Assembly: GCA_016210435.1 (NCBI GenBank)
Contig: JACQUF010000426.1
Location: 1 to 12,792, forward strand
Origin: Chloroflexota bacterium
Lineage (GTDB): Bacteria; Chloroflexota; Dehalococcoidia; Lucifugimonadales; Lucifugimonadaceae
Reading direction: 5' to 3'
Length of the DNA stretch: 12,792 nucleotides
The number at the start of each line of letters is the position of its first letter. Positions within the stretch are counted from its first letter, which is position 1. The translations under genes were made by a program, and so were the position numbers. Positions 1 to 12,792 of the stretch are shown in pieces. The notes beneath the pieces are model-generated. The model had not been told where the DNA came from. It saw only the letters and a program-made list of their open reading frames with translations, and made no database searches.

Positions 1-540
1 ATTGAAGAGCGCGTTCATGTGGTTCTTCACGGAGACCGCGGCCATCTGCTCGACGGTCGTGCCGAATTCATGCATGTGACGGCGGACCATCATGGCGTAG
101 TAACCGGAGTAGAACCCGCCAAGCGGGAAATCGAAGTTCGTATCTGACGCGAGGGCGATGAATTCGTTGCCCTTCCAGGTGTTCACACGTGACATCGTCT
201 CGAAGCCGAATGCCAGGCAACAGTTCATGCGCCCGGAGGCAACCGCCTCCCACGCGGACTGGAAACAGAGGCCGCCGGTCGCCCCACCACCTTCAATCCG
301 CTTGGACGGCTTCGGGCACAGGCCCAGGTAGTCCTGCGCCATGCTCCCGGCCTTCAGCTGGCGTGTGAAGTGGTCGGAGAAGTATGAGCCGACCGCCCCA
401 TCGATCATGTCCTTCCGGAATCGAGGGATATCGCGGAGGGCGTAGTCGTACGCCTCCTTGACCATGACCCGGAAATCCTTGTTGGCGTGCGCCTTGGCGA
501 ACTTCGTGACGCCGCCGGAGATCATGTAGACCCGTCTCAA
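1..540 (-). CDS. Thiolase/SCP-x-family protein lacking the catalytic Cys (partial, 3' end outside the window)
   Basis: 180 codons are visible, reading leftwards off the edge. The start chosen is TTG at 540. It gives MRRVYMISGGVTKF, matching the usual thiolase/SCP-x opening (MRRV..IG.G.TKF), with AAAGGGGG about 12 nt upstream; an in-frame TGA lies just before it. The ATG at 525 is possible but would remove the conserved first strand. The nucleophile region reads IEGGGATGG (residues 82-90). In SCP-x thiolases the matching stretch is NNNCATGS, so Gly86 takes the place of the acyl-accepting Cys. The following stretch (CCLAFGFETMSRV) matches the family well, so the alignment is not in doubt by eye. 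The gene follows the acyl-CoA dehydrogenase on the same strand, 136 nt away, which suggests acyl-CoA or steroid side-chain breakdown. Thiolase-fold aldolases of the Ltp2 type, partnered with DUF35 proteins, are a known non-thiolytic precedent. The fold is secure; the reaction is not. Confidence 0.85.
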   Translation of the reverse strand, partial: MRRVYMISGGVTKFAKAHANKDFRVMVKEAYDYALRDIPRFRKDMIDGAVGSYFSDHFTRQLKAGSMAQDYLGLCPKPSKRIEGGGATGGLCFQSAWEAVASGRMNCCLAFGFETMSRVNTWKGNEFIALASDTNFDFPLGGFYSGYYAMMVRRHMHEFGTTVEQMAAVSVKNHMNALFN

Positions 541-1834: not shown

Positions 1835-1865
1835 CGCTCGCCTCACTTGCGCCGGTGACGGTGAG

Positions 1866-1871
1866 ATTTTA
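1866..1871 (-). promoter_or_regulatory. Candidate -10 box (TAAAAT) for the acyl-CoA dehydrogenase
   Basis: On the minus strand TAAAAT (5 of 6 matches to TATAAT) lies 31 nt before the ATG at 1834. That would give a leader of roughly 25 nt containing the Shine-Dalgarno. A TTGACG lies upstream at 1900-1895, but the 23-nt spacer is too long for a standard sigma-70 -35 box, so only the -10 is proposed. Confidence 0.35.
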
Positions 1872-1929
1872 CGCGTGGACCCACATAAAGACCGCGTCAA
1901 ATGCCGAGCCGGTGGAGGCAGGGCAAACG

Positions 1930-1941
1930 TATAATCGATAT
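1930..1941 (+). promoter_or_regulatory. Leaderless promoter -10 box of E1-alpha copy 1
   Basis: A perfect TATAAT (1930-1935) is followed by 6 nt and then the ATG at 1942. This places the -10 box at -12 to -7 relative to the A of ATG, so transcription would start on or next to the start codon. The nearest GGAGG is about 23 nt upstream, too far to act as a Shine-Dalgarno. The same arrangement occurs at the second E1-alpha gene. No convincing -35 box is visible. Confidence 0.65.
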
Positions 1942-3039
1942 ATGCCGGCACCGTCGATTTCGACCGCGACCGCCGGCAAGGCACAGGTCCGGTCCAACGG
2001 GCAGGGGCTTACCGAAACAGACCTGCTCAAGATGTACCGGATCATGGTGCTGAGCCGGACCCTCGACGAACGCGCGTGGATCCTGAACCGCCAGGGCAAG
2101 GCTGCGATCGTGCCATCCTCCCAGGGCCACGAGGCCACGCAGCTTGCCTGCGCCTGGGCGACCGACCCGACCCGCGACCACTATCTGATCTACTACCGGC
2201 AGCTTCCCCTGCTCGTCGCGCTCGGCGTCACTCCACTCGAACTCCTGAAGGGATTCCTCGCCAAGGAAGGCGAGCCTCTTAGCGGCGCGAGACAGTTTCC
2301 CATGCACGGCGCCCACCCTCGCGTGGACGCCTTCTCTTTTTCCAGCGTGGTTGGCACCCAGATGCCCCAGGCGGTCGGAGTGGCGCTCGCCGACAAAATG
2401 AGGGGCGAATCCCGCGTCTCGGTAGTGTTCTTTGGCGACGGCGGTTCGAGCCAAGGCGATTGCCATGAAGCCATGAACTTCGCCGGGATCCACAAGCTTC
2501 CAGTCATCTTCCTCTGCGAGAACAATCGCTATGCGATCTCGGTGCCGATCCGGAAGCAGGTGGCCACGGAAAGCGTGGCCGGGCGTGCCGCGTCATACGG
2601 TTTTCCCGGCGTGACCGTGGACGGCACCGATGTGGAAGCTGTGTATGAAGTAATGCGCGAGGCTGTTGAGCGCACGCGCTCGCGGGGAGGCCCGGTACTC
2701 ATCGAGGCCATGATCGAGCGCATCTTCCCGCACACGACCGACGACGATCAGACGAAATACCGTTCAGCCGAAGAAATACAACGTGCGAAGGACCGCGATC
2801 CGGTGCCCTTGCTGGAACGGAAATTGCGGGACCGTGGGATCCTGGACGACAAGCTTCGGGAACAGATCTGGGCAGAGGCCAAACGGGCGGTAAACCAGGC
2901 GAACGCAGAGGCGGACGCCGCGCCTTACCCCGATCTTTCCACGATGTACGAGGGCGTTTACGGGACGTCGTTCCCGACCGCCGCGAGCGAAGCTGCTGCG
3001 GGGCATGCGGAGGCCAAAGGCCGCCGTCAGGCCGCGTAA
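1942..3039 (+). CDS. Branched-chain 2-oxo acid dehydrogenase E1 alpha subunit, orphan copy
   Basis: 365 residues. E1-alpha with E1-beta forms the thiamine-diphosphate enzyme that decarboxylates a 2-oxo acid and acylates the lipoyl group of E2. The ThDP motif is GDG (165-167) to ENN (193-195). The RQFPMHG segment (118-124) and the HTTDDD loop (264-269) before KYRS resemble the branched-chain (BCKDH) E1-alpha rather than the pyruvate type. The start at ATG 1942 follows the TATAAT by 6 nt, and from there the protein aligns position for position with the copy at 3980-5011. Residues 21-330 align without gaps, 214 of 310 identical. The C-terminus differs: this copy has an extra Ala/Glu-rich tail of about 22 residues. 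It is not followed by its own E1-beta; the next gene is convergent. It could share the downstream E1-beta with a different substrate range, or be a redundant duplicate. Confidence 0.93.
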   Translation: MPAPSISTATAGKAQVRSNGQGLTETDLLKMYRIMVLSRTLDERAWILNRQGKAAIVPSSQGHEATQLACAWATDPTRDHYLIYYRQLPLLVALGVTPLELLKGFLAKEGEPLSGARQFPMHGAHPRVDAFSFSSVVGTQMPQAVGVALADKMRGESRVSVVFFGDGGSSQGDCHEAMNFAGIHKLPVIFLCENNRYAISVPIRKQVATESVAGRAASYGFPGVTVDGTDVEAVYEVMREAVERTRSRGGPVLIEAMIERIFPHTTDDDQTKYRSAEEIQRAKDRDPVPLLERKLRDRGILDDKLREQIWAEAKRAVNQANAEADAAPYPDLSTMYEGVYGTSFPTAASEAAAGHAEAKGRRQAA

Positions 3040-3151: not shown

Positions 3152-3811
3152 TCAGCCCTCGACTATCTGGATCGAGGACAGTTTCGTCCCTGGCGGCGCC
3201 GACGGGTCCTTTCCCGGGTCCCGCAACTTGATCTTCCTGACAACATCCAGGCCTTCTACGACTTTTCCGAATACGGCATGTTTGTCGTCCAGCCAGGGCG
3301 TGGCCTCGAACGTGATGAAGAACTGTGACCCGCCACTGTCAGGCCCGCTGTTCGCCATGGACAGGATTCCCGGTCTGTCGTGCCGCAGAGAAGGATCGAA
3401 TTCATCCCGGATCACCCATCCGGGCCCGCCGCGGCCCGTGCCGGTCGGGTCCCCTCCCTGTGCCATGAAGCCTTCCAGCACGCGGTGGAAGGTCGAGTTG
3501 TTGTAATACCCGCTTCCCGCCAGGTGAACGAAGTTGTTCACCGTGACGGGCGCCTTCGCGGCGAATAGCTGGACCTTGAATTCGCCGACATCGGTCTTGA
3601 AGACCGCGAAATACTGCTTGTTCTTGTCGATCGTCATCCCTGGTGTGGCCAAAACTACGGGCCCTCCAATGCGCGCCTGCGGCTGCGCACTGCTACGCGC
3701 CACCTCCGTGGGGACGCTTGTCGGAGTCGCAGTCGGCGAAGCGGTCTCCGCCCCGCACGCCGCCGCGGCGACAACCAGCAGCGACGCGATCGCAAAAATC
3801 ACACGCCTCAT
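3152..3811 (-). CDS. Cyclophilin-type peptidyl-prolyl isomerase, probable lipoprotein
   Basis: 219 residues. The first 18 form a signal peptide (MRR then a hydrophobic stretch) ending at AAAAC, with Cys19 as the likely lipidation site. The lipobox is weak because position -3 is Ala. A Ser/Thr/Pro-rich linker (about 22-48) leads to a cyclophilin domain (about 65-218) that catalyses cis-trans isomerisation of prolyl bonds in exported proteins. Nearly all CypA active-site residues are present at the right spacing: Arg110, Phe115, Gln118, Phe165, Trp173, Leu174 and His178. The Trp is notable because many bacterial cyclophilins lack it. The start at ATG 3811 has AGGAG 6 nt upstream. The gene is on the opposite strand to both E1-alpha copies that flank it and has no evident functional link to them. 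Confidence 0.93.
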   Translation of the reverse strand: MRRVIFAIASLLVVAAAACGAETASPTATPTSVPTEVARSSAQPQARIGGPVVLATPGMTIDKNKQYFAVFKTDVGEFKVQLFAAKAPVTVNNFVHLAGSGYYNNSTFHRVLEGFMAQGGDPTGTGRGGPGWVIRDEFDPSLRHDRPGILSMANSGPDSGGSQFFITFEATPWLDDKHAVFGKVVEGLDVVRKIKLRDPGKDPSAPPGTKLSSIQIVEG

Positions 3812-3979: not shown

Positions 3980-5011
3980 ATGCCGCCAGACGATTCGCCG
4001 TCCGCCGCGACGGCCACTTCCGGGCAGCGCGTCCGAAGCAGCAAGTTGACCAGGCCTGACCTGCTCGAGATGTATCGCGTGATGGCCCTCAGCCGGACGC
4101 TGGACGAGCGCGTCTGGCTGCTGAACCGCCAGGGCAAGGCCGCCATCGTGGCGGCCGCCCAGGGCCACGAAGCGGCGCAGATCGCCTGCGTATTTGCCAC
4201 GGATCCTTCCCGCGACCACTACCTCATCTACTACCGTGAGCTGACCACGCTGCTCGCGGTCGGGCTCACGCCTCTGGATCTCCTCAAGGGTTTTCTCTCG
4301 AAGGAAGGGGAACCTATGAGCGGTGGGCGCCAGTTTCCTACGCATGGCGCCTGCAGGAACGTTGACCTCTTCTCCTTTTCGAACGTCGTTGGCACCCAGC
4401 TTCCACAGGCCGCGGGTGTAGCTCTGGCAGACAAGATGCGTGGAGAGCCCAACGTAACCGTCGTCTACTTTGGCGACGGCGCGGCGAGCCAGGGTGATTG
4501 TCACGAGGCGATGAACTTCGCGGGCATCCACCGCCTGCCGATCATCTTTTTCTGCGAGAACAACCGGTACGCGATATCGGTTCCGCTAAGCAAGCAGATG
4601 GCGGTCGAGAACATCGCCGCGAGAGCCGCAGGCTACGGCTTCCCGGGCGTGACCCTCGACGGGACCGACCCGATCGGCGTGTACGAAGCCGTCTACGCCG
4701 CCGCAGAAAGGGCACGCAATGGCGGTGGGCCGACGCTCATCGAAGTGATGGTCGAGCGCCTGTTCCCGCACACGAGCGACGACGACCACACCCGGTACCG
4801 CTCCGCGGAAGACCTCCGCCAGATGCGCTCACGCGACCCGTTGCCGACGTTCGAGGCGCAGCTGCGGAAGGCGGGCATTCTCGACGATGCTACCCACGAC
4901 CGGATCTGGTCTGAAGCGAAGCGTCTAGTGAATGAGGCGACGGAAGAGGCCGAGGCCGCGCCTTACCCTCAGGTGGACCAGTTCACAAGGCACGTTTTCG
5001 CGGAGTCCTGA
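3980..5011 (+). CDS. bkdA: Branched-chain 2-oxo acid dehydrogenase E1 alpha subunit, operon copy
   Basis: 343 residues, the first gene of the dehydrogenase operon. It is the ThDP-binding half of the E1 heterotetramer that decarboxylates branched-chain 2-oxo acids from Val, Leu and Ile. GDG (165-167) and ENN (193-195) form the ThDP/Mg motif. GRQFPTHG and the HTSDDD loop (264-269) with YRSAED are of the BCKDH type. The ATG at 3980 is the first in frame and sits 6 nt after a TATAAT. Its TGA ends 1 nt before the E1-beta start, and GGAG for E1-beta lies inside its last codons, so translation of the two subunits is probably coupled. Compared with the copy at 1942 it lacks the Ala-rich tail. A pyruvate or acetoin substrate cannot be excluded from sequence alone. 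Confidence 0.94.
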   Translation: MPPDDSPSAATATSGQRVRSSKLTRPDLLEMYRVMALSRTLDERVWLLNRQGKAAIVAAAQGHEAAQIACVFATDPSRDHYLIYYRELTTLLAVGLTPLDLLKGFLSKEGEPMSGGRQFPTHGACRNVDLFSFSNVVGTQLPQAAGVALADKMRGEPNVTVVYFGDGAASQGDCHEAMNFAGIHRLPIIFFCENNRYAISVPLSKQMAVENIAARAAGYGFPGVTLDGTDPIGVYEAVYAAAERARNGGGPTLIEVMVERLFPHTSDDDHTRYRSAEDLRQMRSRDPLPTFEAQLRKAGILDDATHDRIWSEAKRLVNEATEEAEAAPYPQVDQFTRHVFAES

Positions 5012-11894: not shown

Positions 11895-11950
11895 ATAGGG
11901 GCCAAGGGCGGCCTCACCCCGGGCCCTCGACCCGCGGCCCTTGGCCCTAT
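11895..11950. terminator. Bidirectional terminator-like inverted repeat between convergent genes
   Basis: ATAGGGGCCAAGGGC (11895-11909) pairs with GCCCTTGGCCCTAT (11937-11950) with a single unpaired base. The 27-nt GC-rich loop can itself fold (CCCGGG and GGGCCC). The arms begin 2 nt after the molybdenum hydroxylase stop and include the stop codon of the opposing GNAT gene, so one element would serve both. Confidence 0.7.
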
Positions 11951-12549
11951 ACGCGATGAACCGGCCCCGCGCCAGGCGGCTGCGGATATCGGCGCTCGTA
12001 ATCCGAACGGAGCATGCCCAGGATTACCGAGTTGAAGCGCGCACCCTGATGTGGCCGGCTTTGACGGAGCGTGCCCTCGTGAACAAACCCGACGTGCTCG
12101 AACATTTCGCGTGCGTGCGTGTTGTATTCGGGCACATCGACCCACGCGCGATACAGGCTAAGCCTGATGAAGATGTGGTCCAGTAGGGCAAGGGTCGTCG
12201 CGGTTCCGTAGCCGCGATGCCACAGGTCCTTGCGACCTATCAGGACCGAGATCTGGGCGTCCCCCAGCGCCTCATCGATCGCCAGCTGGGCCTCACCGAT
12301 GTGCTCCCCCGACGAGGTTCGGATCGAAAAGATATCGCGGTGCGGATGGTGGTCGCCCGACTTGAAGACCCGCTTCCACTCTTCCACATCTGCCAGGAGC
12401 ATCTTGTCGGGGTCGTACCCCAGGTGCGCTGGTTCACCGTAGGTGTACCTGCCGAACCAGCTCTCGGCGATCTCCTCGTCTTTCAACCAGTCGGCGACGC
12501 GCTTTACGTCATCCCGCATCACTTCGGTCAACTGAATCTGAGGCAGCAT
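11947..12549 (-). CDS. GNAT-family N-acetyltransferase (RimJ/RimL-like)
   Basis: 200 residues. The acetyl-CoA pyrophosphate loop is IGRKDLWHRGYGTATTL (104-120; the R-G-x-G-T core is HRGYGTA). It is followed by the helix LLDHIFIRL, the VDVPEYNTHAREMFEHVGF segment (138-155) and EGTLRQ, typical of the RimJ/RimL and spermidine acetyltransferase branch. It transfers acetyl to an amine; the acceptor is unknown. The start is ATG 12549 with GGAGG 6 nt upstream; another ATG 4 nt earlier is in a different frame. The C-terminal 15 residues are Pro-rich and variable. It is convergent with the molybdenum hydroxylase and divergent from the selenoprotein gene. Confidence 0.9.
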   Translation of the reverse strand: MLPQIQLTEVMRDDVKRVADWLKDEEIAESWFGRYTYGEPAHLGYDPDKMLLADVEEWKRVFKSGDHHPHRDIFSIRTSSGEHIGEAQLAIDEALGDAQISVLIGRKDLWHRGYGTATTLALLDHIFIRLSLYRAWVDVPEYNTHAREMFEHVGFVHEGTLRQSRPHQGARFNSVILGMLRSDYERRYPQPPGAGPVHRV

Positions 12550-12688: not shown

Positions 12689-12716
12689 TCGTGCGCCTGC
12701 GACGAAGGAGGTCGAA

Positions 12717-12792
12717 GTGGCCGAAGCTAAGGTGCAAGCAGAAATCGTCTACTGCGTGCCTTGAGGCTATCACCATGTGGCTGGCTGGATGC
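12717..12792 (+). CDS. Probable SelW/SelT/SelH (Rdx)-family selenoprotein, TGA read as selenocysteine (partial)
   Basis: A textbook AAGGAGG (12705-12711) lies 5 nt before GTG 12717. The frame reads VAEAKVQAEIVYCVP, then TGA at 12762-12764, then GYHHVAGWM to the window edge. A Val/Ile strand followed by C-x-x-U-G-Y is the redox motif of the SelW-like Rdx family (vertebrate SelW has YCGAUGY). These are small thioredoxin-fold proteins of about 70-100 residues, known or suspected to act in thiol redox chemistry. If TGA were a stop the product would have only 15 residues, which would not explain the strong ribosome binding site or the family-like sequence continuing after it. Only 28 nt after the TGA are visible, so the SECIS hairpin cannot be judged. 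Alternatives are a TGC-to-TGA mutation or sequencing error in a CxxC homologue. Confidence 0.75.

Follow-up and report, generated by a model that had tools for sequence, protein, structure and literature searches.

A contig of a Chloroflexota genome very probably ends within a gene for a small Rdx (SelW-like) selenoprotein

The window, the whole stretch of 12,792 nucleotides analysed here, ends in a reading frame that is interrupted by a TGA, and the question raised by this locus is whether the TGA is a stop, an error or a codon for selenocysteine (Sec). The original prediction described a hidden selenoprotein gene at the window edge, made up of AAGGAGG, 5 nt, GTG, 15 codons, TGA and a frame open to the end, and each of these elements was confirmed by direct reading (Table 1). 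The GTG at 12717-12719 is counted among the 15 sense codons that precede the TGA, and the frame reads VAEAKVQAEIVYCVP-U-GYHHVAGWM up to the end of the window, which is the complete contig C376 of genome G000, a MAG of 2.28 Mb in 508 contigs that is 61% complete. A stretch of 25 codons at a contig end is by itself weak evidence, and its origin could be chance; the case for the gene comes from data beyond the window, namely its continuation on a second contig, C239, and the intact genes of two congeners, which carry the same TGA and support the prediction. Read together with these, the window almost certainly ends within the gene of a 94-residue selenoprotein of the Rdx family (SelW-like, thioredoxin-like), its TGA being read as Sec. 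This reading draws on the frame, the membership of the Rdx family, a TGA that relatives conserve and a hairpin that covaries, as well as on selB and a fragment of selD in G000 and on selA and tRNA-Sec in both congeners.

Table 1. Coordinates of the features discussed (window positions unless C239 is named).
Feature	Position	Strand	Remarks
E1 alpha of 2-oxoacid dehydrogenase, two genes	1855-3039 and 3980-5011	both +	PF00676
Cyclophilin gene	3152-3811	-	separates the two E1 alpha genes
GNAT acetyltransferase gene adjoining Rdx	11947..12549	-	Pfam Acetyltransf_3 5.2e-10; neighbour conserved in the window's family
Ribosome-binding site AAGGAGG	12705-12711	+	5 nt upstream of GTG; direct reading
Putative Rdx selenoprotein gene, 5' part	12717..12792	+	GTG start, 25 codons and base 1 of codon 26
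In-frame TGA, probable Sec codon, residue 16 in C-V-P-U	12762-12764	+	TGA in 93/118 genes analysed, Cys in 25
Overlap of window end with C239 start	12769..12792	+	24 bases, 1 mismatch at 12789; collinear with G001, G002
SECIS-like hairpin, 5' part	12780..12792	+	GCUGGC-UGGAU-GC(U)CAGC, columns 19-36 from TGA; last 5 bases on C239
Putative Rdx gene, 3' part	C239 bases 25-233, stop TAG 231-233		frame continuation of the window gene

C239, also of G000, opens with the final 24 bases of the window at an identity of 23/24. At the mismatch the A of the window gives Met and the T of C239 gives Leu, Met being the residue found in both congeners, G001 and G002. C239 extends the frame by 76 codons before a TAG (HHVAGWLLSELFSAGGTDVAIKVTPGASGILQLYLDDDLVYDKKSEGNLTPSLTRVKELKTLLKQRIEAAKAKIPA), and the rightward extension with TGA as Sec, which had been put forward as a check, yields a product of 94 residues with an Rdx domain, of which 76 come from C239 and in which Leu is taken at the mismatch position. 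The origin of the gene from two contigs and the one mismatch in their overlap count against the Sec-gene reading. In G001 and G002 the entire gene is unbroken and the TGA is identical in position. A single contig of G001 carries, in order, the molybdenum hydroxylase large subunit, GNAT (minus strand), the TGA-form Rdx, a Cys-form Rdx, glyoxalase (minus strand), and NADH dehydrogenase chain 3 with further subunits. Aligned to G001 and G002, the window's right end and the left end of C239 follow one another in this same order, with the C239 tail landing on the TGA copy, and glyoxalase and NADH dehydrogenase chain 3 are placed on C239 as in the congeners. No Cys-form Rdx copy lies on C239 between Rdx and glyoxalase, and the search of G000 with the Rdx profile found one place. 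The molybdenum hydroxylase of the window matched several NCBIfam models, every one of them under its cut-off. Further upstream in the window, the two E1 alpha genes stand ahead of genes for E1 beta, E2 and lipoyl transferase, which form a single set.

The joined protein matches Pfam Rdx PF10262 (E 2.6e-13, 50.4 bits, cut-off 22.6) and NCBIfam TIGR02174 CXXU_selWTH (36.7 bits, cut-off 34.2), and lies below the cut-off of the Campylobacter equivalog NF041051 (29.9 vs 88). The CxxU motif is C-V-P-TGA, residues 13-16, and aligns with the C-x-x-C of 3dex and other solved relatives, which places the TGA at the second redox position of a SelW/Rdx-like motif, as had been claimed. The solved bacterial Rdx-like proteins 3dex (SAV_2001), 2fa8 and 2oka are matched in sequence with E values of 1.1e-7, 1e-6 and 1.8e-6 respectively, and all three have Cys at the position where the window gene has TGA. 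The match to mammalian Selenoprotein W (2npb, mouse) over residues 8-85 is weak (E 0.37) and too distant for SelW itself, in agreement with the earlier suggestion of a bacterial branch distinct from SelW. The bacterial SelW-like CxxU selenoproteins, as described in the available parts of PMC1794560 and PMC2398784 and by TIGR02174, have the Rdx domain, the N-terminal C-x-x-U and TGA for Sec in common with the window gene. Within this Chloroflexota order, the window gene groups with its relatives as a separate set, and Cys forms occupy the same locus in related genomes; according to the accessible portion of PMC1794560 (2006), SelW-like proteins have very few Cys homologues, or none, in organisms that contain Sec.

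A match was found in 189 of the 250 genomes of the window's order, its own genome included. Two sets of loci were read (59 and 60), to which the gene in the window and two Cys copies from tandem pairs were added, and in the resulting 118 genes analysed, a non-random sample drawn from the upper ends of the match lists, the site codon is TGA in 93, the window's included, and Cys in 25, the latter answering the proposed check for Cys homologues at this position. A Cys codon stands three places upstream of the site in 118/118 genes, this motif having been used to locate the site. Dropped before the counts were L095, a remote Cys form, L084, in which the site is unreadable, and two remote Rdx-like proteins: L093 (G039:C1:20421-20591), a long TGA form with a longer C-terminal part, and L094 (G056:C10:160205-160468), which lies near the TGA-form copy L087 and has S-L-S-D instead of the redox motif. 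Over 85 codons spanning the TGA, the window gene differs from that of G001 with dN 0.12 and dS 1.58, and from that of G002 with dN 0.16 and dS 1.95. A search of the protein database returned 11 proteins, comprising the reading frame of C239 itself and 10 others of 68-80 residues. All 10 begin downstream of the TGA and, because none of them keeps the redox motif, annotation loses the active site; of the expectation that gene callers would miss or mis-start the gene, it is the mis-start that was seen. Three of the 10 had already been labelled 'predicted Rdx family selenoprotein' by a source, one, from a SAR202 cluster bacterium by its name, has the same sequence as the tail of the G002 gene, and another carries the name Chloroflexi bacterium; these two names make the SAR202 group of Chloroflexota the most likely source of the window. 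The plasmid collection gave no match, and there was no relative among 131 pattern matches in the named genome collection.

In bacteria in general, SelB inserts Sec at a UGA marked by a hairpin, and in eukaryotic SelW the SECIS sits in the 3' untranslated region. With the TGA numbered as columns 1-3, RNAalifold on 39 TGA genes predicts a stem of columns 21-24 with 30-33 enclosing UGGAU, a loop whose conservation is uninformative because it is dictated by Trp-Met codons. Columns 21 and 33, the outer pair of the stem, are both wobble positions. In 82 distinct TGA genes they hold G-C (27), C-G (21), U-A (19), A-U (3) or G-U (1), so that pairing occurs in 71/82 vs 6/25 Cys genes, and the excess of observed over expected pairing, 0.46, is the highest among all 91 pairs of third positions, the next being 0.27 (sd 0.08). 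Pairing at 21-33 is found in 57 of the 64 genes outside a subgroup that uses another register, and in 36/41 after removal of near-copies, each value being reached by 0/20000 shuffles; the shuffles disregard relatedness, and the comparison with the other 90 column pairs is the better control. In the subgroup of 18 genes the stem is 18-21 with 30-33, and the variable pair 18-33 is formed in 18/18. Within the stem, pair 23-31 is formed in 82/82 TGA genes and 0.72 of Cys genes, and pair 24-30 in 0.76 and 0.40; pair 22-32, found in 0.72 of TGA genes vs 1.00 of Cys genes, is contrary to the hairpin reading. Helices of 3 bp at columns 9-27 (0.83 of TGA genes) and 9-31 (0.72) have a higher share and were given no weight because they show merely 2 or 3 pair types.

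In the window's genus the stem has 6 bp with one U bulged out, GCUGGC-UGGAU-GC(U)CAGC, and an energy of -6.9 kcal/mol. Its hairpin is without the 21-33 pair and requires this alternative bulged stem, which counts against it. Any of the three stem registers is formed in 86/93 TGA genes and 8/25 Cys genes, the three registers and the split into 64 and 18 genes having been picked after the sequences were seen. The available text of PMC13188914 gives a model with a loop of 3-9 nt, a stem of 4-16 bp, a G within the first two positions of the loop, a spacing of 16-37 nt and an energy of at most -7.5 kcal/mol. Compared with this, the window hairpin has a 5-nt loop, UGGAU, with G second, a 6-bp stem and 21 nt from TGA to loop, agreeing in all but the energy (-6.9 vs -7.5 kcal/mol), and it differs in its one bulged U and in the three stem registers found among relatives. 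Folded alone, the window region is no more stable than its shuffles (z 0.92, -0.08, 0.41), which, like the missed energy limit, counts against the Sec-gene reading. The SECIS that had been expected after the TGA is seen as a hairpin covarying across relatives and not in the window sequence folded alone. A hairpin directly after the TGA that covaries at synonymous sites in TGA genes, not in Cys genes, behaves as a bacterial SECIS should.

The machinery for Sec was only partly recovered in G000. SelB is present (616 aa, 340.7 bits, cut-off 242), as is a fragment of selD that is cut off by the contig start and begins at profile position 35; selA gave no match and tRNA-Sec (selC) was not found in this 61%-complete MAG. 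Both negative results count against the Sec-gene reading. The claim that the organism makes Sec stands on selB and the selD fragment in its own genome, and for selA and selC on the congeners, which have both. Three matches to the tRNA-Sec model in G000, all below the cut-off, are tRNA-Trp, -Gly and -Ala. G002 (98% complete) has selA, selB, selC and selD, and G001 (69% complete) has selA, selB and tRNA-Sec, with selD not over the cut-off; the tRNA-SeC of both carries the anticodon tca. The tRNA-Sec cut-off is passed in 49/60 genomes, a count that was not used because the weaker matches may be other tRNAs; 41 have a match of at least 59 bits, and ARAGORN called tRNA-SeC at 8/8 strong loci. SelA is over its cut-off in 46 of the 60 genomes (G000 and 59 relatives), and a TGA-form Rdx was read in 30/46 of these vs 2/14 of the others, namely G000 and G023, the latter a MAG of 82% completeness whose selA match covers 99 positions. 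Five of the 14 genomes with no selA over the cut-off have the Cys form as sole match (G006, G007, G009, G016 and G025). The Cys form also stands alone in six genomes with selA (G011, G017, G020, G022, G029 and G035), which contradicts a simple rule. SelD is probably also a selenoprotein in the window's order, because the selD matches over the cut-off (e.g. L054 and L055) contain an in-frame TGA, that of the G000 fragment excepted. In G009 and G027 selD is over the cut-off with an in-frame TGA and selA is not over its own, a pattern that reflects either assembly gaps or a different use of selenophosphate.

Three other explanations of the TGA and of the joined gene have to be weighed. TGA differs by one base from TGC and TGT, and it is conceivable that a Cys codon has decayed to or been misread as TGA, leaving a gene that is dead or internally started, in a MAG that is fragmented, 61% complete and in which selA and selC were not found. 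Such a pseudogene or sequencing error is nevertheless highly improbable: the identical TGA occurs in both congeners and, the window included, in 93 of the 118 genes analysed, dN is far under dS on both sides of the TGA, and the codons upstream of the TGA are conserved together with the motif Cys. A frame that stays open through TGA would also be expected from an altered genetic code in which TGA is decoded as an amino acid other than Sec. This is the least probable of the three and scarcely credible, as three domain-bearing genes of the window (cyclophilin, the second E1 alpha and E2) stop at TGA, homologues have Cys at the site, and selB, the selD fragment and the tRNA-SeC of the congeners indicate Sec.

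The joining of the contigs is the point at which an alternative is least improbable, though still very unlikely. TGA and Cys copies lie in tandem in G001 and G002 and the 24-base overlap contains a mismatch, and the start of C239 might therefore stem from another Rdx copy, such as a tandem Cys copy, in which case the true tail would differ. However, the joined protein is 74% identical to the TGA copy of G001 and 47% to its Cys copy, and C239 aligns to the TGA copies of both congeners before continuing as they do into glyoxalase and NADH dehydrogenase. Whether or not the join is wrong, the window part is orthologous to a TGA-form Rdx gene. As judged from these comparisons, the TGA very probably codes for Sec in a small SelW-like (Rdx) redox protein.

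With the TGA as a Sec codon, translation would initiate at GTG 12717, and SelB bound to the hairpin (columns 19-36) would deliver Sec-tRNA to the ribosome at TGA 12762, so that in the product the first strand would end with the redox motif C-V-P-U. This product would most likely be a small thiol/selenol oxidoreductase whose Cys-Sec pair makes and breaks a selenenylsulfide, a chemistry suggested by its family membership. We infer both the insertion of Sec in this organism and the redox chemistry, and the same would hold for any substrate or partner. To our knowledge, no substrate of a bacterial Rdx protein is known, and the gene neighbours (16 loci listed; 59 loci matched) indicate no substrate or partner.

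The neighbour that does recur is GNAT. A relative of the window's GNAT lies in the flank of 25 of the 59 Rdx loci (L077 and L091 among these 59 being one place in G013), and all 25 belong to the window's family, where they comprise 8/12 Sec loci, 16/16 Cys loci and L084; outside the family the figure is 0/30. The glyoxalase neighbour was matched in the G001 and G002 loci alone, and nuoA-like matches occur at 6/59 loci. Beside GNAT, Rdx has the Sec form in G000, G003, G004, G014, G023 and G032, the Cys form in other genomes, and both forms in tandem in G001 (C66, L064:3794-4084), G002 (C1) and G013 (C1:1276417-1277009), the two copies of G013 being 86 bases apart and in reversed order relative to G001 and G002. 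Since GNAT-flanked sites show all three states, a single locus carries the Sec form, the Cys form or the two together. In a tree built from all 118 proteins, the Sec and Cys labels require two changes. One concerns 24 Cys rows that group as a clade (99/95), of which 23 come from the window's family and one, G243, from another; the Sec row of G003 is the first to group with this clade (98/84), and the window's clade follows (95/74, not starred). The other change is G244, in which selA is not over the cut-off and gave weak matches alone. Because the tree has midpoint rooting and only 92 columns, the direction from Sec to Cys is a presumption. The chances are about even that the GNAT-Rdx locus is a natural record of Sec-to-Cys exchange through tandem duplication. 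Under such an exchange the hairpin would be visibly selected at synonymous sites in Sec copies only and, given that Cys forms also occur where selA is kept, the swap would have a driver beyond the loss of Sec decoding.

SelW-like bacterial selenoproteins are already known, abundant and well described, and the window gene adds one more of them. In the available text of PMC1794560 (2006), SelW-like is one of 25 bacterial selenoprotein families and 3 selenoproteins are given for Chloroflexi; as far as the accessible part of PMC2398784 goes, no family was spread more widely in the Global Ocean Sampling data than SelW-like (427 sequences) and SelD; SelW-like is listed again in a 2021 marine study, in the portion at hand (PMC9402790); and in the available part of a sponge metagenome study (PMC5649159), whose bins include SAR202, SelA and SelB are noted for symbiont bins from several phyla. 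The available portion of the literature searched, with most subscription journals outside it, gave no description of Rdx selenoproteins in this order. Such Rdx genes are widespread across the bacterial order, most of those analysed being of the TGA form, and the gene set serves well as an example of covariation in a bacterial SECIS. Loci where Sec and Cys copies stand side by side would allow a direct test of what Sec adds over Cys.
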